64,000 nt of DNA from Norana najaformis (taxonomy: Eukaryota > Annelida > Clitellata > Crassiclitellata > Hormogastridae): contig OZ029919.1 in assembly GCA_964023275.1 (NCBI GenBank), forward strand, positions 13,204,254 to 13,268,253. Direction: 5' to 3'. Below, piece by piece: positions 7,910-64,000 of the stretch (within the stretch, counting starts at the first letter, position 1; each line of letters begins with the position of its first letter). The translations under genes were made by a program, and so were the position numbers. The notes below the pieces were generated by a model. The model searched no databases. It was not told the origin of the DNA and saw only the letters and a program-made list of their open reading frames with translations.

Positions 7910-7919
7910 ATTGACGGCA

Positions 7920-7998
7920 CTACTACTACAACAACTACTACCACTACCACCACTACTACCACTGCTACCACCACCACCACCACCACTACTACTACTGG
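7920..7998. repeat. (ACT/ACC)n trinucleotide repeat
   Basis: Long run of ACT, ACC and ACA triplets that abuts the inversion breakpoint of the Gypsy element. Confidence 0.9.
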
Positions 7999-7999
7999 T

Positions 8000-9330
8000 T
8001 TATTGGTATTGTTATTGATGTTTATTAGGCCTATTATTATTTTACACAAGGTAGCTACGTTGCCTTTAGATTTTGAACTGACCGGAATTTAAAAAATTAC
8101 ACCTGTAACGACTAGTCCCAGTCACGTTGTGGAAAGCTTTGGATTGCTATTGCATTGAAAGAGAACTGCATGGTGTGTTTCACATCTCTTTGAACTTTGG
8201 GTCAGAGAAAGCCCCTATTATTAGTAGTGGTACTATTTTCTTAATTATTATTTTTCAATCATCTTATCAAAGCTGCAAAAATAATTGTGTTTGTTTATAT
8301 ACCCTTTCCTAAGCGACTGTGGTCAACTGTTTTAATAGGCCACCCGTTTCCTGGTTGGCTTAGATCATCTGTTGTAATGGTCTAACCTTCTGCAGATTCA
8401 CTTGGTTGTACCAGTTCTGCGTGTGTTTTTGTGCACTTCGTCTGTAGAGGATTTTAGGTTGAGTTCTGGATCTTAGCTCAGCACGTGGTCTTTCAGGGCT
8501 CCTAAGGAATCTTGTATTGGAGTAGGCCTACTAAGAGACAGACATCTCTTGTAATCCGTTATGGTGGAGTAAAATTGATATTGTTTGAATTGTTTCAATG
8601 TTGACCAATGAAAGCTGTTGACGTTTAGTGATGAACTTTTCCAGTTTTGCCGAGATTAGAATTATGTCTTAATAATTGCATTCATTATGTAGTTTTGCTG
8701 TTGAGCTCTTGTTTACAATTTCATCGCAACTGCCCCTTGGTTCGTAGTCGTAACCGAGTAATCTGTAATGCAACAGTAAAGCTGTTTATAGAATGGAATT
8801 GGCAGACTGCAAATCCAAATCTGAAACAAATCTAAGTTTGTCCGAGATTTAATAAATTTAATATCGTTACAGTAAACTGTTGCCACGTGGTTTCTTGAGT
8901 CGTTCCACTCACATCTCCTAATGAAAAATTCAACTTCTCACAATTGAGTGGATCGATGACTTGCCGTTCCTTCCTCCACAGACCTCTCAAACTTTTAACT
9001 AGACCCAGTCTTTGTTAATAAAGCACGCCTGCAAAAGATGACCTACTTTGGACAGCTCTTCCCCTTGCTCGCATATGGCATAACACTTCCCATCCCCTTT
9101 GCGGACAGCCGCACTCCAACGGAGTACTAATGCCTGGATTAGGCTCCCTTGTTGATCTATGGGGTGGGGTACTTCGATACTGCCGCGTTCAGGAAAGGGA
9201 CTAATTCGACCCAAAACAGTACAGACTGTCTTCTGTCTGGCTGAAGTTAGTGTTTAAGGCACAGACTGTACTGAGATAATCATGTATCAAATTTAGGTGC
9301 AGATGTCTGCATTGGGCATGACCCCTTGTC
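8000..9330. other. No gene seen
   Basis: AT-rich unique-looking sequence without convincing ORFs, splice-bounded exons or recognisable repeats. Confidence 0.5.
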
Positions 9331-9335
9331 CGCAC

Positions 9336-9384
9336 TTTTTAATTTCTGCATTTATTAGGTGCCATTATCTAATGACTTCAAACC
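9336..9384 (-). repeat. SINE 3' tail fragment
   Basis: Reverse complement AGTCATTAGATAATGGCACC followed by TAATAAATGC matches the tail of the tRNA-derived SINE at 43597-43756. Confidence 0.6.
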
Positions 9385-9399
9385 TGATGTTCGTGGCCT

Positions 9400-10350
9400 C
9401 TGCAGTTCTACAACTTATAAAATTAAATTATGTCGTCCACTCAACGACCTCGGCAATTCATCAACTCGGAGCTCTCGGCATCCATAAGCATACATATAAT
9501 TCCTTGCGTACATACTTACTGGACGTTATGGGCGAATGAGCGGCAAAATAGTCAACCGGAAAATCGAACGCATACTAGAACATGATTGGATGTGTCTTAC
9601 ACGTGATCTAAATCAATAACATGATTGGATAATGATAAATTACGTCAAACTATTGAACAAACACACACCTGATGACGTTAAACCGTTTGCCATAGTAACG
9701 CTTTTAGGTTTTGACAGTTGACATTTGAAAAGTTCTTCGACAATTTTAGATTTTCCATTGTTTCTGCAATTTTTTACTGAAAATTACGATCTCAAAGTTT
9801 AGAAATCTGAAGTTCGACCAGGTAAACGATATATCAAAATATTAGAACCGTTTCTTGCCGAAATATTGATGTCGAGTGATAGTGTTTAGCTATATCACAG
9901 ATTCTATTTATGTAGCATATGTGGCTATATCTTGATATAAAAGACCATAGAATTGTATCATGAATGACCCAGTTTATAAATTCTTAGAAAACTAAAGTAC
10001 TGATATCTGTAAATTTGCCCAACTGTTCGTTCAAGTAAACCAGAAATCGATATATTATTGTTAAAAGCGTGAAACGTAGCAGACAAAATAGTTCGAAATT
10101 CATGAACTTTATTCCCTTATCTCCAGGGTTATGCATAAGCAACTGATTCAAAGTAACCAATTAGTACTCGTTTTATGTGACTTCATGTCTAACTTTGGTA
10201 CCTGTTTAACTCCATTCATTGAATATCAGAAATGTGCAGACCAACGAAAAAGTAGCAGGGTTCTGGAAGAGCCTTTTTATGTGATAGAACTTTCAAATAT
10301 AGATTCCCTGTTTCATATCTTTTGTTATTCTAATGACTGAAACTTTCTCA
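9400..10350. other. AT-rich spacer before the exon-like array
   Basis: No coding signal seen. A transcript that includes the downstream array would need its promoter here, but no core promoter motif can be assigned with confidence. Confidence 0.4.
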
Positions 10351-10351
10351 G

Positions 10352-13300
10352 CAATAAAGAATACATTAACAACAAGAAAGCCAGATTTCAAGCAAGCCAG
10401 TATTAAAGCCAGCATCGAAACAAAGCAAAGCTAAGAGGTCCACAATAGAAAATCAAGAAGTTATTTTAGAAATATTTTTCCTCTGGTTCTTAACTTTATG
10501 TAATTTTAGCCTCTTAAGCCTTTTTCAGCAGATAAACAACACAAAACATAAAGAAAACTAAAAACAAAGCCAGCTTCAAAACAAAGCGAAGTCCAGAGAT
10601 CCAGAACAGAAGGCCTACAAGTTTTCAGCAGGTAAAAAACACTAACAAAAAGGAGAAACTAAAAGTAAAACAAAGTCAGCATTAAAGCTAAGTCATTATC
10701 TAAGTAAAAGTAAACATAAAAAACCCAGAGCTTGAGAACACAAGACCAACTGGTATTTTCAAGCTAAGGTACTCTGCTTCATACTTTTATGTCATTTTAT
10801 GGATTAGAACTTATTTTCAGCAGATGCGAATTAATAACTAAAAACAAGAAATGAAGAAATCCACCATCACTACAAAGCCCAGAAGACCAGGAGGTATTCA
10901 AATTTAATTTCCTCTGCTTCTTATCTTTAGTTGATAAAAATTATTTTCAGCAGCTAACTAAACAAAAATATACAGCCAAGCCTATATCGAAGCAAAATCA
11001 ACCACAGAAATGCCAAGAAGTCCAGAAGGCCAGGATGTATTTTCAAATTCAGATTCATCTGCTTCATATCTTTAGTTGATCAATATTATTTTAAAAATTT
11101 CTGCTCTAAATTTGTATAACAATTCAGGAGCTAAAGGTTGATTAAAGCAGCTAAACATACAAAGCACAACTGGTGTCATCATCAAAGCAAAGCCCAGAAG
11201 TCCAGACGAGAAGATCAACAGGTATTTTCAAATTCAGATTCCTCTGTTTTATATCATGCAATTTTAGGAGCTAACCTTATTTTCAGCAGATAACAAATTA
11301 AAAATATGAACAAATCCAGTCATCAAAATAAAGCCTGCATTAACGTGCAGGCATTTTCAAAGCAAAGCCATCGCCAAAGCGAAGAACAGAAGTCCAGACA
11401 AGAAGACCAACAGGTATTTACAAATTTAGATTCCTCTTTTTGATATTATTATGTTGTTTTAGGAGTTAACCTTGTTTTTAGCAGATCAAACATTAAAAAC
11501 ATGAAGAAATCCAGTCATCAAAATAAAGCCAGCATTAACGTGAAGGCATTTTCAAAGAAAAACTATTGGCAAAGTAAAGCCAAAGAGATCCAGAAGATGA
11601 GACCAACAGGTATTTTGAAATTAATTTTTACAGGTTCCTTTGTTTCATATCAGGATTCCATTTTAGTGGTCATTTTTCAGCAGATAAAAACATCAGTAAA
11701 GCCAGCATTATAGCAATGCCAACACAAACACCCATCAACAAAGAAAAGACCAGCAGGTATGTTTTCAAATTAAGTTTTCTCTGCTTCATGTCTGTATGTC
11801 ACGGTAGGGACAAGTTATTTATTTAGCTGATAAAACACAAAAGATCAAGAAAGACAGCATAAAAAGAATGCCATCATTAAAAGAAAGCCACAACTAGATT
11901 GAGCACCAAAACAAAGCCCAGAAGTCTGGAGCAGAGGACCATCAGGTATTCTCAAATTCAGATTTCTCTATTTCATTTCTTTACAAAAAGCAAGGAAATC
12001 AACATCAAAACAGCCATTTTCACAGGAAGGTGAACACGAACCAAAAGTCCAAGTTCAAAGGTCAAGAAACCACAGTTTAAGTGCAGAAGGTTAACAGTTG
12101 GGTTATTTTGTAAATTAAGACTTGTGTGTTATATATCTTTATGTCATTTTAGAGGCTAGAATGTCATTTCAGCAAGTAAAAAAAACAAAATACCAATAAA
12201 GCTGACATCAAAACAAAGAGAGAATCAAAGCAAAGCCCAGAGGTCGAAAACACAAGTTCAGATCGTATTTCAGACTAAGATTCTTCTGTTTCATATCTTG
12301 AAGTCGATTTAGGGGTGAAAGTTTTTTGCAGATAAAAACAAAAGAGACCAAGAAAAGTCAATATCAAAAGAAAGCCATCATCAAAGCCCAGAGAAGACCA
12401 GCAGGTACTTTTCAAATTACAATACTTTTGTTTCATATCTAGATGTCATTATAGTGATGAAAGTTTTCAGCAGATAAAAATACAAAATACCAAGAAAGCT
12501 GACCACAAGACCAAATCATCATCAAAGTCCAGAGAAGACCAGCAGGTATTTTTCAAATAAAAATACTTCTGTTTCATATCTGAATGTTGCTTTAGCGATG
12601 AAAGTTTTTCAGCAAATAAGTACAAAATGCTACAAAAGCCGACAACAGAACCAAACCATCATCAAAGTCCAGAAACGACTAGCAGGTATTTTTAAATTAA
12701 AATACTTCTGTTTCATATCTGAAAGTCATATTAATTTAACAATGAAATTTTTCAGCATATAAAAAGAACAAAATATGAAAGACAACATCAAAAGAAGACA
12801 TTAAAGCACAGAGAAGATTAGCAGGTACTTTTCAAATTAAAAAACTTCTGTTTCATATCTGAATGTCATATAAGCGATGAAAGTTTTTCTGCAGATAAAA
12901 AGTACCAAGTATTAAAGACCACATCAAAAGAAGACATTAAAGCAAAAGAGAAGACCAGCAGGTATTTTTCAAGTTAAGATTTAATTGTTTCATATCTTGA
13001 AGTCATTTAAGTATAAAGGTTTTTCAGCAGATAAAACCATCACAAAAGCAAATTTTAAAGCAAAGCCATGGAATATCCAAGCAAAGCTCAGAGAACACCA
13101 TGAAACAGGTAATTCCAAATTAAGCTTTCTCTGTTTCAGGTGTTTATGACACAGTAAGGGAGAAGTGTTTTCAGCAGTAAAATATACAAAATTTCCTTAA
13201 GAAAACTGGCACTGAAACAAAGCAATCATCAAAGCAAAGTGAATATCAAAGCCCATATTTCAAGAACAGAAAATCAACAGGTATTTTGAAATGAAGATTT

Positions 13301-14746
13301 ATATGTTTGACATCTTTGTAATTTTAGGGCAAGAATTTATTTGCCGCAGGTAAAATTCTAAACTACAAAGAAAGCTGGCATAATATAAAGCTCAGAAATC
13401 CAGAACAAAAATCAACAGGTATTTTCAAATTAATATTCTGTTGTTTTATGTCTGTATGATTTCATGGCAAAACATTTTTCAGCAGATAAATAACATCGAT
13501 AAAGCCAACACGGTGTCAAAAGCCATTGCCTTAACAGCCATCATGAAGGCCAGAGAAGACCAGCAAGTATTCTTCTAAATAAGATTTCTCTGTTTAATAT
13601 CTTTATGACACAATTAGTGCAAGTTTTTTCAGCAGAAGTTTTTCAGCATATAAGAACTATAAATAATCTAGAACGCCAGCATCAAAAGAAAACGAGCATC
13701 CTGAAAGCCTTCATTAAAGTGAGCACCTAAACAAAGCCTTGAAGTCCAGAGCAGAAGATCAACAGGTATTTCAAATTAATATTTTTCTGTTTCATGTTTT
13801 TGTCTAATTTTAGTGGTTGAAACTTAGTTTCAGGAGATGAGAGTTAAAACTGTAAAAAATTAAACACATACTGTAAGGCCAGCATCAAACACAATGCCAT
13901 CAGGCATTTTGCAATTAAGATAGATGACTAGTACATTTCATCAGTATATACAGTTTCAATTATTTAAGCTTGTTTTCAGCAGAGAAATTCAAAATAAAAA
14001 TCAAGAAAGCAAACATCAAAGCAAAATAAAAAGGTCCAGGACAACAAACAAGACAATGCAAGTATGCTAAATTAAGATACTTGACAGTATAGTGATACAT
14101 ACATCTGTTTCTGCTTCATGATTCACATATAAAACTTGTATTCAGGAGAAGGAATATCAAGAAGAAAGAAAGAAAAGCAAAACCAAACGAAGAGTACAGT
14201 AAGAATCTGGTGATTTAAATTTGAGACATAACTATTTCTGAACTCTTACAGTTTGTTATTATCATTTATGTTGTTTTGAGGATAAAGTTTGCTTTCAGAA
14301 GAAATAAACTAAAAAAATTAATGAAGAAACAATTCCACCATCAAGGAGAGAAACCAAAGCCAGAAGATCTTTAAGTCAGACTTGGTAGGTTCCATAATAA
14401 GGCTACTGTTTTGCATACTTGTTAAAAAGATGAGAATTTTTAAGCCATGCAGCAGATTTTAGGGGAAAGAGAAAACATCAAAGCAGACTTAAAGATTCAG
14501 ACGAGGCATGCACATGATGATCAAGGTATCCATATTTCTTTTCACTGGTTTCATGTCGTTTTGTGTGTTAATGCAGCATTCAGAAACAAAGAAATCAAGA
14601 GTAAAACGAGTGTCAACACACAATAAAGAAAATTACAAATTCATCTGTTCTTGTCTCAGTGTGTCCATGCATACATAAATTTGTATTCAGAGGTATAGGA
14701 AGAGAACTTGCAAAGCCAGAAGCTGCAGAACAACATAACAGAACAG
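10352..14746 (+). repeat. Tandem array of about 29 exon-like units with conserved splice-like borders
   Basis: Units of about 140-200 bp repeat head to tail. Each purine-rich segment (about 67-130 nt) begins after TTTTCAG, usually as CAGATAAAA, and contains variants of AAAGCCAGCATCAAAGC and CCAGAAG. It ends in GACCAGCAG or ACCAACAG and is followed by GTATTTTCAAATTAAGAT. The spacer is about 65-75 nt in the best-conserved part. It contains CTCTGTTTCATATCTT, then ATGTCATTTTAG, then a pyrimidine tract and CAG. Clear units include 10821-10893, 11287-11413, 11482-11609, 11681-11756, 12332-12404, 12471-12545, 12613-12685, 12756-12824, 12895-12961, 13028-13108, 13175-13280, 13483-13566, 13647-13765 and 14691-14746. 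Lengths are not multiples of three and many units contain stops in all frames, so it does not read as protein. Possible readings are a repetitive noncoding RNA gene, leader exons of the gene 2.4 kb downstream, or a decayed intragenic tandem duplication. Confidence 0.8.
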
Positions 14747-14790
14747 GTATTTTAACTTTTAGTCATGATTAAAATATCTGCATTTCTGTG

Positions 14791-14893
14791 TCATCACTTT
14801 TACGAGTTTGTTAAGCTTACGATCAACATTAAATAGTTAACTGTCATCGTTTTATGAGTTTGTTAAGCTTATGGTCAACATTAAATAATTAAG
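14791..14893. repeat. Tandem duplication of a 51-bp segment
   Basis: Two adjacent copies of a segment containing GAGTTTGTTAAGCTTA, then GATCAACATTAAATA or GGTCAACATTAAATA, differ at a few bases. It lies just after the last exon-like unit. Confidence 0.85.
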
Positions 14894-15332
14894 TTTACAA
14901 AGGATATCCAGTTACTAGACAAGCATGAATTACAAAAGCAGAGAAGAGTAGATGGGATGTTGCAGAATACAATGGCAAGTTCAAAGAAACGGAACACTGC
15001 AAATGACAGCGTCTGGAGTTTGGAACGGCAGTTTCTTATATTCCAATATTAAGGTGTTTATTTTTAGCTCTTCAAGGAACAAGTTGTTAAATTGCATTTA
15101 ATTCTACATGAGATCTGAACTGAGCAGTGACTGTATCTGTAAATGTACTAACACCCGTGTCAGATCTACAATGTTATACATGAATTTAAAAATTCAGAGT
15201 TCTATGCACATTCCTGAAAATTAGGGAAAGAAGTACTTAGCCCACAGAATGCAGAAAATTACTTGTCTACAAAGCAGCAGTGGGCATTGTTCACATATCT
15301 GCTATGGATTCCCAAACGTTGTTATATAAAGC

Positions 15333-15334
<2 letters not shown>

Positions 15335-15370
<36 letters not shown>

Positions 15371-15445
15371 GTTATTATTATATTACTGCTGCTACTACTA
15401 CTACTACCACTACTACTACTACCACCACCACCACCACTACTACAA
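15335..15445. repeat. (ATT)n and (ACT)n microsatellite
   Basis: A run of ATT triplets passes into CTGCT and then ACT/ACC triplets. The ORFs across it are low-complexity artefacts. Confidence 0.95.
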
Positions 15446-17100
15446 AACATTACGCTAAGAGCTGTTAACGGATATCTGGAAAATTCCCGCCATATTATTA
15501 TTTATCTAGAGGTTACCATAGGCCTACACATGATATAAAAGCGGCAGTCACATGGTAATTGTAAAAGTATATGATTTTGGTCACTATAGGTAAATGTGTA
15601 CATTTACATTGACTAATGACCATTTGAAAGAATGGAGGTAATTTATTAACACTAACTGCGACCAACTTTTATTCAGAGTTAATAATGATGATGGTGGTAA
15701 TGGTGATGATGATGATGATGATGATGAAAACCCAGAGCTTTTTGGGAAAGACTCTTTTTATCTAACGCTGTGCTGCAATAACCACTTATGTAGTTGCTGT
15801 TTAACGACACTGTCATAACAAAGATGATTAGCATTGCCCTTCTTTATCCAGGCTTGGGAAATAATCAACAAAGTTGACACTGGTATAACCCTGTAGGCTG
15901 GCTTTGAGACATTGTGCTTCTTGCATGCAGGCCACTTCTTCGGGCACTGGGCACTTTTTATGTTACACTTTTGTTCTTCTCGAGAGGCTTCGTGTGTTTG
16001 ATTCTTAAAATGACTGATTTTTCTGATTGTAAATTTCTTTGTTTAATAGCGCAATATTTCTTTTTGACGTGCCTGAGCCGGAGCGTGTTGAGTTTTAATT
16101 AGTTTTGCCATCGTTAGATAATTGAATCAGTTCGAGTGCAGTGCAGCTGTTTGTAGTAAATGAAGAAGAATGTCTTTATGTAAACAGACAAAGGAAGAGA
16201 TAGGCAGTATCATTTCAAGCTCTGGAAAACAAGTAGGTATGAAGCTATAGGCTTTGAAACGGAAATTGTATATATTCTTGTGAACTTGAATTAGTTGCAT
16301 AGTCCTCTGAATCTTTTAGCTTAAGACCAGACATCATAACAATTCTGCATTCTGATAACTTTCAGTGTTGTTACACAAAAACTGCCAGTGTTGACACCAT
16401 GTACAGCCCTTCTAAGCGCAGGTAACTAGTTGACAAGTTAAGAAGTGCAGCTCTATCTGACGGCCGCGATGCCAGTCGGATGAAGGATCAGAGTGGCAAT
16501 TTTCATTAGACACATGTTACTGATTGCAGGAATAGAGTAAGCCATTTGGTTAGATTTTTACTGCGAAGAAATTCTTAATCGTTGGGATGTTGTAGAGAAT
16601 AAATAATGTTCTGTTCTTTTTCATGCTGTTATTGAACCAAGCACTTGATATTTGATAACCTGTGCAAACTGTTTGCTCTGATTGAACTAAGAGACCAGTA
16701 AATTAAACATGACATTTAGTGATTTAGTAGGCATTGATATTGTCACTGATATTACAGCTGAAACAGTAGCACAGCAATAGCTGGTTCAAACGGTTCAATG
16801 AACTGGGGCCCTAGATAACTTAAGACCCTAGCAGGTGGCAGAGAATTATTGTTTGTTAGCGTGAAACTGCATTAAAATAACAGGTTCCACAGGACACAAG
16901 AATATTAGAGAGAGGGACCTGTGAAAAACCAGGGCTGGCAAATTCTTCAAATTCTGTGCTGTGCCTCTGAACTGTTATAAGTGCCATGCTCTTGCTTAAT
17001 GATGCTGAATTTTATAGGAAGAATGTTCAGCTTTCAGATCTGTTGTTAGACTGCCGAAACTGACAGGAAGTTTGTCTGCTTGAAGTTGTTTTCAAGTCTT
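15446..17100. other. Upstream region of the avidin-like gene
   Basis: AT-rich, with a short ATG/GAT repeat near 15686-15727. No coding exon was identified. A 5' untranslated exon and promoter of the downstream gene may lie here but cannot be pinned down. Confidence 0.4.
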
Positions 17101-17105
17101 GAGAA

Positions 17106-25369
<8,264 letters not shown>

Positions 25370-41300: not shown

Positions 41301-44300
41301 AAAAGTTGTTATATAGTTATTCTTTGTTGGCATGAGAATGAGATAAGTGCAATGTTACCTGCCAAGATTTTTTAGTATTTCTTCATTTACTCTTGTTGAT
41401 TTTCCTGTTGTTCATTTACTCTGTGTGCTCCAGTCTGTTAATGCATTTATTGTTTATAAAATGTGAAATGTAAATAAAAATATAAATATATTGTTAAATA
41501 CGGCAGTTATATTAACCTTTTGGAATTACTGAGGTGACCAGGTGAGGATGTTGCTCAGCATTTGTTGAGTTTAGCTGGAATGACCCAATAACGTAAAAAA
41601 GTGGAAAAACTCGGAAAAATTTTTTTGTATTTTTTCAACTGGCACAATATTAGATTTTGTTCAGAATTTCATTCTGAACATAAAAATATAATTTTTTTGC
41701 TTGTAGCACCAAAATGCACAATTTTACGCTAACATATCTGACTATAAGAGATTCGTGTAAACTCGATTAAATATAAGAACCTAAAGAGGGAGAAACCAGC
41801 AGGGAGAACTGCATGCACTTGATCAGCTACGCCCTTAAAAGCGCTGTAAAAAGATCAGATCAGATCAACGGGCAAATAGGGTAAGTACAGACAATGAAAT
41901 ATACTGCTTTAAAGCCAATTTATGCAAGTTCTTGACAAATGCTTCAGGCTATTCCATCAATCTGAACAACTCTAGCATGGAATATGTTTGCTTGTTTCAA
42001 CAACAGTTATAAGTATGGCCTAGATTCGATCCTATTGTTCGTTTCTGATTGGACTATGGAAGAGATCGAACTGGACTGTAAAGCGACTGGATGATATATT
42101 GATTGGACAGGTCAAAGACCTGACAAGTTAAATGGAGTCTATTAGATTAGAACGCCACAGCCAAGAGTCGCATCCAGTGTCTAAAATCTGCAATGTAAGG
42201 ACATGTCCGTCGCCAGCACAATGTCAGTCACAAGACTACGAAACTCATTGTAGTCTGTAGCGTAGACCTAGAAGTTTGTAGCTTTAGCCGAGCACGGAGG
42301 ATGTAATGTGACGATACATATGGATACAGACCTGTCTGAAGAATTCCTCTATCAAGAGCTCAGTCCATCTGTGATGCAATTCCCACTTCTTAGCCGGATG
42401 ACTGATGTCAGCGCAGTGCACGATCAACGACAATGCCTTCGTCTTGTCAACGCTAGCAGACACCATAACAACAGCTAAGTCAGCGCAACAAACTGCGCTC
42501 ACATGCGCTCCAGAAAATCTTGAAAAAAATTGTTCCAATTCGACACAGAGTTTGGTTCTGAAAAGGAAACTATTAATCGCTTAATTAAATCATATTTCTT
42601 TGCGTTTCTGTCCCCATTCAACTTGGTCGTCAGATGCTGCGTCCTGCGATGCGGGGTCAACTCGTTGATCTCCTCTGCCACAAGCTGACATTCGGGCCTT
42701 CTCCTCCGTAGGACGGTCTTTCTGAAACAGTCTTCCCCCCCCCCCATTGAAATTTGCTCCGCTCCACCATTACACTTTCTCGAACATCAAAGACGTGTCT
42801 CTTTCTATCTGACTGATAACCACCGTCACAGTGCCTTTGAGAGGATCTTAACAGGCGCTAAACAAAAGTCCTGTAATAGGTAAAAGTAGAACCCTAGCGT
42901 TTGTCCTTATAAGGAAGATCACCTTCTGATAAGGAAGACCACCTTCTGATAAGGAAGACCACCTTCTGATAAGGAAGACCACCTTCTGATAAGGAAGACC
43001 ACCTTTTGATAAGGATGTCCACCGACATCAGATTCTTTACAGTATTCGGAAAGGTCTGCTCTCGCTACTTCATAGTTTGTTTTTTATCAGAGGCGTTACA
43101 CAAATTAGGATGTTTTATTATATGCCAAGATGCGGCAGTTCTAGGCTTAGAAAAGTAACAGTTGCATTGCATTAATAGTCTAAACGTCGCAAAACAACAA
43201 TTAAAAGCAATAAAGAAGTTTCGACGCACAGATTCTCTGTTGAAAAGCGTCGAGAAATGAACTGACCTTTCTCTTAAGCTGATCATGGCATTCATGTTTT
43301 TGATTTGTTGAAAATGAAAGGACATGTCCGTCGCTAGAACGATGTCAATCACAAGACTACGAAACTCCCTACAACACAACTTCCACAGATCATGATGCGT
43401 GCGAAATCCTATATGGTTACAGGCCCCGAATGCTGGCCAGTTATTAGGACAAAAGAGGTAAAGGTAACGCTTTTGTTACTTGCCCCTATGGACAATGCTG
43501 AGAAGCGTACGTAGTCCCGGAGTTGAAGGATCATTCGACTGAGGCGCAAACACGACCACAGCAGTGACAAGGCAACAGCATGAAGGTATTTTTTTATTTT
43601 TCGCATTTATTAGGCGCCAATATCTAATGACTTAGCAGCAATCGATGGCGCCGAGCAATTGGACTTGCTCGAGGCCCCTCCACAGTAACCGTCTCGGAGG
43701 AGGCCCGAACCCGTACACTCCGCGTTACAAGTCGAGCGCTCTATCCATTAACAGGTATTGGACTGAAGCAGGTATTGGAATGAAGCTGTTTCAGCGGACA
43801 TCATTCTTGTTGCTGTTATGGTTAATCCAGGGTCGCTCTAAGTCTTCAATTCTGAAAGGCAACTGAAGGCATTCGCTTGATTTGCGATGGAGAGACTTCG
43901 CCTTCTTAACAGTTGTTCAGTCGAGTTAAATCCATGCAATGCCGACAACTCCAGGTTCAGATGATCGTTCAAAGGCTAAGCCCCGGTGTAACTGACAGAC
44001 CCACACTGCATCGATGCGTAGTTAGTCTTGAGCTGCTGCACAGAAACAATTTCAATTTCGCTCTGCTTCGTCGAAAACGACTAAAGGATTGGAGTCAGTT
44101 AAAAGGTTTCCGGCCACTTTTCGTCTTTAGAGTTGCTTTGAAGAGTAGAGCTGAGCCGACGCAGCTGGTCGCAGGTCAGTCCGATTCCTCGGCTGAGTGA
44201 CATCTTCGTTCATCTGCTGTTCGCAGAGGGATAATGACTTGTCAGACCACATTAAGATTCTGGTAGACTTGGCCGCTGACGCTTTGAGTAGTAAGCGGCA

Positions 44301-47300: not shown

Positions 47301-50300
47301 ACTCGTTTGTAGTTGGATCTTTTATTGATCACTGCTGAGTCATCGGTGGCCTTCATGACGCAATAATGAGATACGAGAGTAAATCGGACGATATAGTCTA
47401 TAGAACCAACTTGCCTTACGGTGTTTATGAATGTATATTATAGGCCTTATAGCGTTTATAAATGTATAGTATAGGCGGCGGCCTACCGATAAGCCTGATC
47501 TGGAGATGACGTGGTGCATAGTTTGAGTGACGTCGGCCGCATGTATCATGTTGTGGTAGGGATTGGCATATTTGCTGTAGCCTTGTTCCAACCGCGCGAG
47601 TAAACAGTCTAAGGTCTGTGTGATCATCTGCAAAACACAAAGCCCAAAGCTAATAACAGCTTCACGTCCGTCGATAGACAGCATACCTTGATGACTGGCT
47701 GGCTGGAGGGATGGAGGGAGGGATGGAGGGATGGAGGGAGGAATGGAGGGATGGAAGGAGGAATGGATGGATGGATGGATGGAAGGAGAGATGGAGGGAT
47801 GACTGCTGGACAACTGACTACTGTCTCGGTGGTTCACTTGTTGGCTGGCTTTACGAATGAATGAATGAATGAATGAATGAACGAACGACTGTTAGACTGT
47901 CAGACCATTGGTCGACCGTTGGTCGGTCAGTCATTGAAGACAGTCAGTCAGTTTGCCCGTGGAGTGAGATCATTAGTAGAGCCTGAGTGCCAACACCACA
48001 GAAGCTCCAATGAGTACATTTTCATCTAATTCTGACTCCAGCTAATTAGAAACAGCTCGCTGCTCATTAAACAAATCTGTGAATTGATGGGTACTGTAAG
48101 TATGTAAGTAAGCAAGCAGTGCTTTAATTTCAATCTCATGTAACATCAGATGTACTGAAGAGGGATAAAGGGTGTGTGTGTGTGTCTGCGTGGGTGCGTT
48201 GCTTCGTGAAGTAGGCCTACTGCTTTCTCAAAGGAAACTATTATCCTGAGGTTGACAGGTTACGAACGAGTGTTACCGGCTTTACAATTGAAATGACTCA
48301 TGTAAAACAAAAGGAAATGACTGAAGTTGCGGTTCAAGGTTGATCCGCAGAAATCACGAGGCTCCCAGCTTAACGATTAGACATGGCTGCCTATAGCTTT
48401 TAAAGCCAATATGTTGACAATTTATAATTAAAAAGTTGACCATTAAAGTGTAATGTATGCGTAAACAATTGATGGTTAAACTAGACGGGGTCAAGCCCAA
48501 CATCCTGGACTTTTTGTTCGACACTGGAGAGTTGTACTTACATCACATCTGGGGATATGAACATTCCCAAGATTACGTTACGTGATTACATAACACCTGG
48601 AGCTATGAAGATTCCCGAGACGCCCTGCAAATCCAGACTTGCAGCCCTTTGTTCTTTGTGGATGATGCTGTGGGAGTTCATAGAACTGAAGGACTGTACG
48701 CATTGAATGAGGCATCTGTTGCAAGGTTATACTGAGCTGCACCAAACAAAACACTAAACTGAAACATCTGTATGTTACTCTCACCAGTCCCTTGGAACTT
48801 CGTCATACATCTGTGCATTTTCCACTCCAGAATGTGGACACGATTATAGTTAGTGGAACTAAATTTTAACGGTGGGATGGTGAAAAGGGTAAAACCGACC
48901 CCATGTAATTTTTTCATTATCGATGGGAGTTAGCTTTTGGCTTAGGGTGAACTCACGCATCGCTGCTATACCCAACCTCGGTTAATGTGAAGCCTGACAA
49001 TTTAAGTGTGACCTTGAACTTGTTGATGAGATCGTAGCGCTGAAGCAGGTCGTATCCGATGTATCTCAGGGCGTGTCCCTCCGACCCTTCGTCGAGAGCA
49101 AAGACATCGAAAGACCATGCGTCTGTGCTCTACAAACCAAGACCAACGGAGTTACATTAACAATTATTTAATATAATTTAACTAAAAGTTATTTAACATA
49201 TTCATTTCAACGTTATATGTAATTTAAGCAGTGCTTTTTTCAGACGGAATGCTCCGGAACGGCGTTCCGGCACCTTTTTTCGGCTAATAAAAAATAATTT
49301 AGTTTTAAATAAAAGAATTGTGTTACTAAGTTATTTTAATTATGTAATATAACGTAACTTTTTAAATTCAATTTCAGTGTTTACAACTTTACACTGTTTT
49401 CAGTGTTCATTGATTGATAAAAATAATGAAATTTTAGCACAAAATTCCATAATTGTTCAGTTCCGGAACCTTTTTGTCTAGAAAAAAGCACCAAATTTAA
49501 GCAAAAATTATTTGATACTGTCATTGGAAAGTTATACGCGTCCTGGATGCTTTACAAGGTCTTTTTCAGTCACAAACAGCGCAGAAGCCGTTAATAAATC
49601 CACAAGAGTTGTTGTACATGAACAATTATAGGCGGTGAGACGAATAACCAGAATCTGCCACTGAAAGCGAACGGCCAGTGAGCGATGCATTCTATGAAGT
49701 GACTGAGCTCAGTTGATTAAATACTTGTACGAGGAAACGTTAAGGCAACATGGCAAATGTCATCGCACCAGTCCGCCAACTATGTATGTATGTATGCATG
49801 TATGTGTGTATGTATGTAAGTACGTACATGATTAGGCTGCGTACGTACATACGTACGCACGTATGTATGTATGCATGCATGTATATATGTATGTATGTAT
49901 GTATGTATGTAAGGGCGCCACCCCATTTAGGTCCCTGTGTACGAATACAAATCCCTGAAATATGGTTACGGTTGATATGCCACCCGGCATCCTCTAGCAT
50001 AGACGATGTGACGTGCGGTTTTATCGAAGCAGGTGACCGGGAGAGTGTAAGTTAAAGTAATCGCTCATGCGCTAGAAATAGAAGAATTTATTAGACGCCT
50101 GTATCAACATGAGTGCTCAGAGGGGGCGTGGCTCTTGCGTTGAGGGATCTTTCGGCTGAAAAGCAAACGCGACAACAGTAATTCAACACAACAAGCGGAC
50201 AGCGTTTTCATTCAGATTACATGACTTGCATTGAGCCAAAGAGCCAAAGCTTAAACCAAGGGTTTAGTCCTCCACTGCGTCATCCAGTTTGGGTCTAATA

Positions 50301-53300
50301 TAAGCGAATACTAGTAAATCATCAGGAAAGACGGCTTATCAGTCGCTATCTTGCCTGACTGGCAGGGGATGAATTGAGGCGTCACATTATGTTCCAACGG
50401 CCATCTATTTATGGCCACCCATACACAGCTCCGACATAGATGGCACTACACAAGACAGCAAGCGATGCTGATTCAACAGAATGAATGAGCAGAAATGCGC
50501 CGCCGATGGCATCACCTGCAGAAACAGCGCTTACAACTTGCAACCCACGCCGTACTCTCTGTCATCACAAGGCGTAAAATTAAATATCATAGTCGAGCAT
50601 TTGCAGTTGTACACGATAAACCAGGTCGCTGCGTATGATTAGGCTGCGTATAAATAGTCTGCGTATGATTAGGCTGCGTATGATTAGTCTGCGTATGATT
50701 AGGCTGCGTATGATTAGGCTGCGTATGATTAGGCTGCGTATAAATAGTCTGCGTATGATTAGGCTGTGTATGATTAGGCTGCGTATGATTACGCTGCGTG
50801 TGATTACGCTGCGCTTGCTGGCTATTGAGCTGATCTTACACATACTAATGACTCAGTCACTTAACTTATCGCTCATTTGTGTCTCGTCTCTGAAACGCTC
50901 AATCGCTGAGACTCAGCATCTCTCATCTGCACCCAAACACATTGATGGAAATTGTTCTTATTTGTTACATGGCTGCTCAGTGATCGACCGACCGACAGAT
51001 CACCGACAGACCGAACAAGCGACCGACAGACCGAACAAGCGACCGACAGACCGAACAAGCGACCGACAGACCGAACAAACGACCGACAGACCGAACAAGC
51101 GACCGACAGACCGAACAAGCGACCGACAGACCGAACAAGCGACCGACAGACCGAACAAACGACCGACAGACCGAACAAGCGACCGACAGACCGAACAAGC
51201 GACCGACAGACCGAACAAGCGACCGACAGACCGAACAAGCGACCGACAGACCGAACAAACGACCGACAGACCGAACAAGCGACCGACAGACCGAACAAGC
51301 GACCGACAGACCGAACAAGCGACCGATAGACCGAACAAACGACCGACAGACCGAACAAGCGACCGACAGACCGAACAAGCGACCGACAGACCGAACAAGC
51401 GACCGACAGACCGAACAAAGCGACCGACAGACCGAACAAGCGACCGACAGACCGAACAAACGACCGACAGACCGAACAAGCGACCGACAGACCGAACAAG
51501 CGACCGACAGACCGAACAAGCGACCGACAGACCGAACAAGCGACCGACAGACCGACCAAGCGAGCGACAACTGAAGGAGACTTCCACAGAGTCTGTGTCG
51601 ATGATTATTCAAAGTGTTATTTTGTCAAGGGGTCCATAGGTCAGCTGGCCAGTCCGTCGGTCGGTCGGTCGGTCGGTCGGTCGGTCAGCTGCGACTATTT
51701 AAGCATCATATAAGATGAAAGAAATGAACTGATGAAACCCTTGTCCTCGATTGCCGTACAACAACGAAGTTACCTGATCTAAGACATCCATCATCATCAT
51801 GTATGCAAGGGGATGCAGCAGCAGCATCATTAACAACATCACCGTCATCACTCATATGGTCAAGTATGTGACAGACACGATGAAAATTAGAAAATGATAC
51901 GAAAGCGGCGGCATTTCCTGTATGCGAACCACAACACATCGTCCGGGACCTTGGTGTAGACTATTCTATATGTGGTTGACTATGCCAGCTCTTTCTGAAG
52001 CTCTGGCCCAGTTTAGGGTCATGCGACGAAATCTATCGTCTGACATCTCAGCTGAGATCCCCTTCAATTGTGTCATCTTGACTTGTTTGAGCTGCTGTGG
52101 CGCTGTCTTCGCAAGACCTGTCGAAAGTCTAGTTGCGTGTACAGTCTCTACTCAACTGTGGACCTGCTAAGTGGCAGCAGAGAGCCAGATTACAGCGCCT
52201 TCGACAGTCGCTATATAAATGTCTGGATACATACTTACATACAAATGTTCAAAAACTTACACCAACGTCGTCGTCGTCATCATCATCGTGATCATCACTT
52301 ATAGCAGCCACATAAAGAGGCACCAGGAATTATTCGAAAATACAAGATGAGATTCCGAACGAACCAATTTAAGAGCTAAGTGTTTGCGCCGCATCAGTTG
52401 AGTAAGAGAGGACGTCCAAAGTTCCATAGGAAATACAAAGTCAGGCGGCATATCAATGCAGAGCCAAAGATCAGTCTGCGATAGCAGTCGGTTACAAAAC
52501 CTTAGATGAGTAGGTGGAATAATTACAAAAGGCGGAGAATAACCGGCGAAAGCTGTTGGCAGTATGTTGGAAACAATGACAAAAGGGATAGTAATGACCT
52601 GAAGCCTCTCAGATGATGCATTTCACTCATTAAACTTCATAGAAAAGTGTATTTGAACTCGGCTAGTCATCAGTAGATCCGGTCTTCTTGTAGCTCTACA
52701 TGACCTGTACATAGCTAAGGCGCTTCCTTGTGAAGCCTGAACCCACCTTCAGTAAAGTCGCGATCTTTGCAGGAACGTGTCGACCAACGTAACTTGACAC
52801 TCGACGGTAAATCCTACATTTGCACAAAGGTAAAGAAGATTCGCTGAAGACGGCCATGACTTATCCGTTGAGTCAGGCGACTTCAGGCAGGCATACCTAG
52901 GCCTACGCCTATTAAATCAGTCGTTATGCATGACCTGACCCTTGATTTTTAATAGCATAGGTTAATTGTGCAGAAGGATGCAGTTGAATTCTATTTACGG
53001 CCAATAATTTGTAAAATTTCGAGCTAACATGAAGCATGATATCGCGTTATTATACTTTTAAAATTTTAAGACAAGGTTTAACACTACATGCAAATGAGGA
53101 ATTAGTATTTGGTTCAATAGAATTTCAACTCGAAATTTAGCAGTTTAACAGGAGTTGGAGTTTTGATGCAGACCTTTGCTCATTATAGTCTCTCTATATA
53201 TTTAGGTACACACATAATGATTTCTGTAAGAATTGAGATTTTGAAGAGGTCATCTGTGGCTTCTATACAGCACCGTCAAAAATTGTAAATCTCTTAAACA

Positions 53301-63794: not shown

Positions 63795-64000
63795 GGTCGA
63801 CCGGGGGATCGTTGTTGGTCAGTCGTTGTTGGTCGGTCGTTGTTGGTCGGTCGTTGTTGGTCGGTCGTTGTTGGTCAGTCGTTGTTGGTCAGTCGTTGTT
63901 GGTCAGTCGTTGCTGGTCAGTCGTTGTTGGTCAGTCGTTGCTGGTCAGTCGTTGTTGGTCAGTCGTTGCTGGTCAGTCGTTGCTGATCAGTCGTTGTTGG
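63795..64000. repeat. 14-bp satellite GTTGTTGGTCAGTC, cut by window end
   Basis: About 14 copies of TCGTTGTTGGTCGGTCG-like units. The first copies have GGTCGG and later ones GGTCAG, with TTG alternating with CTG. The array runs past the window end. Confidence 0.95.

Follow-up and report, generated by a model that had tools for sequence, protein, structure and literature searches.

A dispersed family of tandem exon-intron arrays in Norana najaformis, with a truncated copy of a putative noncoding RNA gene upstream of an avidin gene

The window analysed here, a stretch of 64,000 nucleotides (C7:13204254-13268253), probably carries a 3'-truncated and likely decaying copy belonging to a dispersed family of noncoding RNA genes transcribed by Pol II. 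Its array consists of 29 head-to-tail units and a 14-nt stub, as found by wraparound alignment of 10340-14760 against one unit, and every unit lies on the same strand, which confirms the original prediction of about 29 tandem exon-like units with splice borders. The predicted coordinates match the array, which in turn belongs to a larger feature, being the middle of a dispersed element (7919-15333) with relatives at at least 12 other genomic places. The following features, all on the plus strand, were assigned to the window copy.

7919..15333, window copy of the dispersed element, delimited by aligned ends in BLAST against other copies (75-89% identity to the better copies)
9556..9699, promoter-like block, from alignments of seven copies and of six copies plus P and Q, with the sites CCGGAA, ATTGG (9585-9589 and 9624-9628), CACGTG (9600-9605), CRE-like TTACGTCA (9640-9647) and TGACGTTA (9673-9680), and X-box-like TTGCCATAGTAAC (9687-9699)
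9720..9821, putative first exon ending in GTTCGACCAG, left end approximate, from copy alignments
9822..10351, putative intron 1, with donor GT in 7/7 copies and acceptor TTTCTCAG in 7/7 copies
10352..14746, tandem exon-intron array of 29 units, from wraparound alignment, a tandem-repeat finder and column conservation
12332..12961, regular central units, from the tandem-repeat finder and genome search, used as the query that found other copies
14747..15333, downstream part common to other copies, from aligned BLAST ends
15163/15164, acceptor-like site TGTACTAACACCCGTGTCAG/ATC within the downstream part

The array and the element around it

Each unit comprises a T-rich spacer, starting with GTATTT and ending with TTTCAG, and an A-rich exon-like segment that ends in CAG. 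The tandem-repeat finder returned periods of 140-195 nt with 72-82% matches (overlapping rows of period 140-317) and the greatest regularity at 12268-13036, and spacers delimited by hand measure 57-92 nt. Relative to the other copies, the window copy has lost the intron between the second and third units, and its first array donor is GTTATT, as against GTAA in 6/6 other copies. One unit carries a GC donor (GCATTT, 13904), which is the same in all six copies compared. A second odd donor near 14205 (unit at 14210), either GTAAGAATC or GTGATT, is kept in six copies. Array donors are mostly GTATTT, unlike the strong GTAAGT, and this counts against the reading that we favour.

Upstream of the array, seven copies share the promoter-like block and then a conserved stretch ending in GTTCGACCAG/GTAAAC. 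The sites in this block resemble an X-box, an E-box, CCAAT boxes and, at two positions, CREs. When P, an older relative, and Q are included, CACGTG is present in 8/9 copies, GCCATAGTAAC in 6/9, and a perfect TGACGTCA in 6/9 at the first position and 4/9 at the second; the window copy has no perfect CRE at either position. An ATG is found in the first exon of P and of six of the seven young copies (7/9 in all), and is absent from Q and from the window copy, which reads ATT (9783-9785). The exon usually ends in CAG/GTAAAC, with the donor at 9822 in the window and GT in 7/7 copies (GTGAAC in one); the corresponding end is GAG/GTAAGT in Q and AAG/GCGATC, not GT, in P, an argument against simple conservation of the donor in that copy.

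Downstream, similarity to the window copy stops at 15333 and the other copies run on into a shared terminal region, so that the window copy is devoid of the terminal block and exon found elsewhere. This block is present in six copies (on C3, C5, C9, two on C6, and P on C10), and its CTAAC motif, acceptor GGCCAG/GACCTTG, GTATTAAA and ATTAAA are found in 6/6. Among the matches listed in genome-wide searches, it occurs in family members only.

The genome (608 Mb, 17 contigs) was searched with parts of the element. Among the matches listed, the central units matched strongly on C3, C5 and C10 and at three places of C6, and less strongly on C2 and again on C10; queries from before and after the array added C16 (two places), C9 and a diverged C10 locus in which both parts lie 23 kb apart. 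These at least 12 places and the window are spread over eight contigs, including C7, and sequence was inspected at 11 of the 12 (C16:16.17 Mb was left out). Aligned over their full length, young copies are 75-89% identical, and six of them hold 29, 37, 35, 24, 49 and 27 array units, the range across the family being 24 to 98. The mean pairwise difference between young copies is 0.13 in intron 1, 0.10 in the array, 0.076 in exon 1 and 0.035-0.07 towards the end of the terminal region. The window copy is limited by an (ACT)n microsatellite on the left and by a (TTA)n/(ACT)n microsatellite on the right. The C2 copy (L021/L022) is split by a 751-aa frame on the opposite strand, presumably reverse-transcriptase-like.

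Conservation of splice borders and flanking blocks

The original prediction had turned in part on whether unit borders are better conserved than interiors. In 28 unit rows of the window array, compared with a consensus typed by hand from the array itself, agreement in the GT/AG columns averages 0.92 (donor GT 0.93/0.89, acceptor AG 0.89/0.96), versus 0.75 in intron columns and 0.70 in exon columns, and four random intron columns equal the GT/AG mean with p of about 0.002. An intron-internal block, TCTGTTTCATATC, reaches a mean of 0.79, almost equal to the borders, and conservation is consequently not limited to them. The 11 outermost rows retain AG throughout (11/11) and GT in 9/11 and 8/11.

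Summed over the unit rows of six copies, donor GT is present in 170/191 and acceptor AG in 173/193. With one base of slack, some loss of GT/AG was found at 4/23 splice sites versus 159/360 control GT/AG sites (p 0.009), and upon inspection of each border 7/136 splice cells had lost the dinucleotide versus 259/2052 cells for the same dinucleotides elsewhere. These loss counts refer to the two array ends only, the centre lying outside, and to 23 of 31 hand-listed sites, a list without the GC-donor site; at the remaining eight, either the alignment consensus differed from GT/AG or rows were too few for inclusion. A first column count with hand-set borders had been mixed, pairwise differences amounting to 25/122 (5' part) and 5/282 (3' part) for GT and to 4/112 and 58/300, respectively, for AG, with 0.09-0.10 in intron interiors; we attribute this, as a matter of judgement, to columns lying 1-3 off in T runs.

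The older relative P (C10:4.738-4.767 Mb, minus strand; 67-78% related at its ends) has a 164-bp unit repeated 98.5 times with 94% matches; within the unit, a GT..AG intron takes up 71 nt and an exon 93 nt. A short unrelated repeat is also found within P. Its 98 full units have AG in 98/98 and GT in 92/98 cases, but since 98 of the 164 columns show no substitution this array is too uniform to prove selection. Compared with shuffles, the P intron resembles the window-type intron (identity 0.79, z 7.5), and likewise the exon (0.73, z 3.9). A worn third locus, at C10:2.874 Mb, retains a promoter fragment and about nine old P-type units. In 60-nt windows, identity between P and the C3 copy is 0.48-0.74 over promoter and exon 1, mostly 0.2-0.47 over upstream DNA and intron 1 (one window at 0.66), mostly 0.5-0.7 in the few hundred bases 5' of the terminal block, and 0.80-0.88 in the block itself, with 0.65 and 0.57 in the adjoining windows. 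The stretch from promoter to exon 1, and above all the terminal block, thus appear alike between subfamilies, whereas upstream DNA and intron 1 do not.

The original prediction's interpretation is partly supported. Of the readings that it offered, a multi-exon noncoding RNA, of which the splicing is putative, agrees best with the data, and to it can now be added a promoter-like block and a first exon, as well as a terminal exon in other copies. A tandem duplication that preserves splice signals is part of the same picture.

Alternative readings

It is possible, if rather doubtful, that the family is a noncoding, transposon-like dispersed repeat, once a spliced gene and now inert or spreading, whose borders were inherited and are not maintained. 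Its copies do sit at unrelated places, the left ends of the window, C3 and C2 copies begin at (ACT)n microsatellites, and from the window copy one intron and the terminal block are missing, as are the start-codon position and any perfect CRE. Such a repeat fits poorly, however, with truncation that differs among copies, with the lack of an element-encoded ORF and with a promoter and terminal block that remain alike between subfamilies. Likewise, no target-site duplication of at least 9 bases was found at the six copies tested, whose element ends are uncertain, no terminal repeats common to copies were seen, and no inverted repeats were reported for positions 9000-16000 of the window. Viral contigs gave no exact match to the one pattern searched. 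An exon-exon junction pattern with up to two mismatches occurred at 530 places versus 209 for the reversed control. Spliced retrocopies were sought among the eight exact junction places and none was found, which counts against the reading that we favour: seven belong to one unrelated repeat family (88-98% alike), which we assume to be Ty3/gypsy-like, and the eighth is unrelated.

A decayed repeat-protein gene, or a short-peptide gene starting in exon 1 (MTISKFRNLKFDQ), is very unlikely. The ATG of 7/9 copies would suit a coding origin, as would stop triplets rarer than in mononucleotide shuffles in 6/6 copies; when dinucleotides are kept, the deficit is clear in C5 (0.0377 vs 0.0471, sd 0.0019; 19/1162 in frame 0), weak in C6m10 and absent in the other four. 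In 6/6 copies the longest frame after splicing (103-150 aa) is above the mean of the shuffles, yet all six fall below the shuffled maxima (162-215), and no continuous reading frame runs through the spliced exons of these copies. Furthermore, exon lengths in the window array are mixed (remainders 0, 1 and 2 on division by three in 7/29, 14/29 and 8/29), 97/99 P exons contain a stop in each of the three frames, neither the window copy nor Q retains the ATG, and in P and C9 a frame within the terminal block is interrupted by a deletion of one base. Phase-compatible open exons, as in a gene of tandem coding exons, were not found; the lack of a conserved reading frame is as expected of a lncRNA gene, with a reservation for C5. 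The earlier view that this is not a normal repeat-protein gene is therefore supported by the missing long frame and mixed phases, subject to the fewer stop triplets in C5. Exons and introns fold no better than shuffles (five pieces, z -1.22 to 0.59), which counts against the noncoding RNA reading. A snoRNA host with repeated units was considered and rejected on 0 Rfam matches in the window, L009-L014 and L014:3500-4700, and a tRNA search returned none.

The strictly 164-bp tandem organisation of the P array, together with an interior block conserved almost like the borders, could suggest a tandem satellite with chance splice-like motifs. We nevertheless consider this highly improbable, since near-complete copies always have the array between the same flanks, GT..AG is found at both unit borders in two diverged subfamilies, and composition changes at these borders, from T 0.45 and A 0.28 in the spacers to A 0.50 and T 0.14 in the exon-like parts (15 units).

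That the array supplies alternative leader exons to the avidin gene, as had been proposed, is not supported and has next to no likelihood: the array shares the avidin strand, with an avidin exon (Pfam PF01382, E 5.7e-8) following 2.4 kb after its end, and read-through from a copy without its own terminal block is conceivable, but the family recurs at at least 12 other places, and BLAST of window positions 15451-20000 against eight other copy regions found no avidin DNA nearby, the only four matches being short (56-88 nt), which indicates that avidin was not carried along with the element.

Other features of the window were noted. The avidin gene start (17107-18041) comprises a signal-peptide-like exon and the Pfam Avidin exon, and its intron contains a short repeat (17490-17590), presumably tRNA-like, of which 88 nt are found again close to the C6:23.67 Mb copy. 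On the minus strand, 42284-42580 and 47340-47891 are exons of a cyclic-nucleotide phosphodiesterase (Pfam PDEase_I, E 5.9e-12 for the first; the second, at E 1.8e-4, falls below the curated cut-off). Minisatellites occupy 50628-50813 (15-bp unit, 12 copies), 51002-51569 (20-bp unit, 28 copies, 97% matches) and 63809-64000 (14-bp unit, continuing past the window end).

Possible function and known systems

If the family does consist of noncoding RNA genes, transcription of the window copy would start at about 9.72 kb on the plus strand and, judging from the DNA alone, introns of 57-92 nt would be removed. The product would be a long A-rich RNA with many similar exon repeats of 50-130 nt, about 9.1 kb of exon in the case of P, and the array may expand and contract through unequal exchange, its unit being amplified time and again while remaining spliceable; splice sites would presumably be retained because an RNA with unspliced units in it would be defective. 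Repeated, weakly structured exons could then offer RNA-binding proteins a platform with many sites, as has been proposed for the repeat domains of Firre and Xist. More speculatively, and we consider this unlikely as a whole, the RNA may be assembled from noncoding mini-exons, nearly identical and up to about a hundred in number, a spliceosome-competent unit being what amplifies, and its introns may act as a sink for splicing factors or time its maturation, possibly in the germ line, a role suggested by the CRE- and X-box-like promoter sites.

Should transcription and splicing occur, this would be an extreme case of a noncoding RNA built from repeated exons, its copies ranging from 24 to 98 units in one genome. 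With such a naturally graded set one could ask how large a number of introns is tolerated in a noncoding RNA, how a unit is amplified without loss of splicing, and whether the number of exon repeats determines RNA function.

Dscam-type clusters consist of tandemly duplicated coding exons with splice signals kept. Duplicated exons with kept splice signals are common to both systems, but Dscam-type exons encode protein domains and those described here are noncoding. In the literature, subscription journals being scarcely covered, the same arrangement was not recognised. The SNORD116 host of mammals (IPW-A exons, SNHG14) is a single long transcript in which noncoding units of exon and intron are repeated in tandem (PMC9369261), similar to the repeated units reported here, for which a transcript is deduced from DNA; its introns, however, carry C/D snoRNAs, whereas those of the present family measure 57-92 nt, have no Rfam match in the sequences searched and occur in many dispersed copies. 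In Firre, local repeats (RRD) coincide with exons (7/13 in human, 11/23 in mouse; PMC4820808), as they do in this putative noncoding RNA, but Firre is a single locus with repeats interspersed in a long gene, in contrast to a compact head-to-tail array of up to 98 units. Gomafu/MIAT has tandem UACUAAC repeats that bind SF1, with titration of splicing factors proposed (PMC3116199), and from it the idea of a splicing-factor sink was taken over; both RNAs, ours being putative, are rich in splicing signals, but Gomafu repeats branch-site motifs inside an exon, whereas here entire introns with both borders are repeated. The IPW-A exons of the SNORD116 host and the exon repeats of Firre are the closest known systems, and the present family differs from both in intron size, compactness and dispersal.
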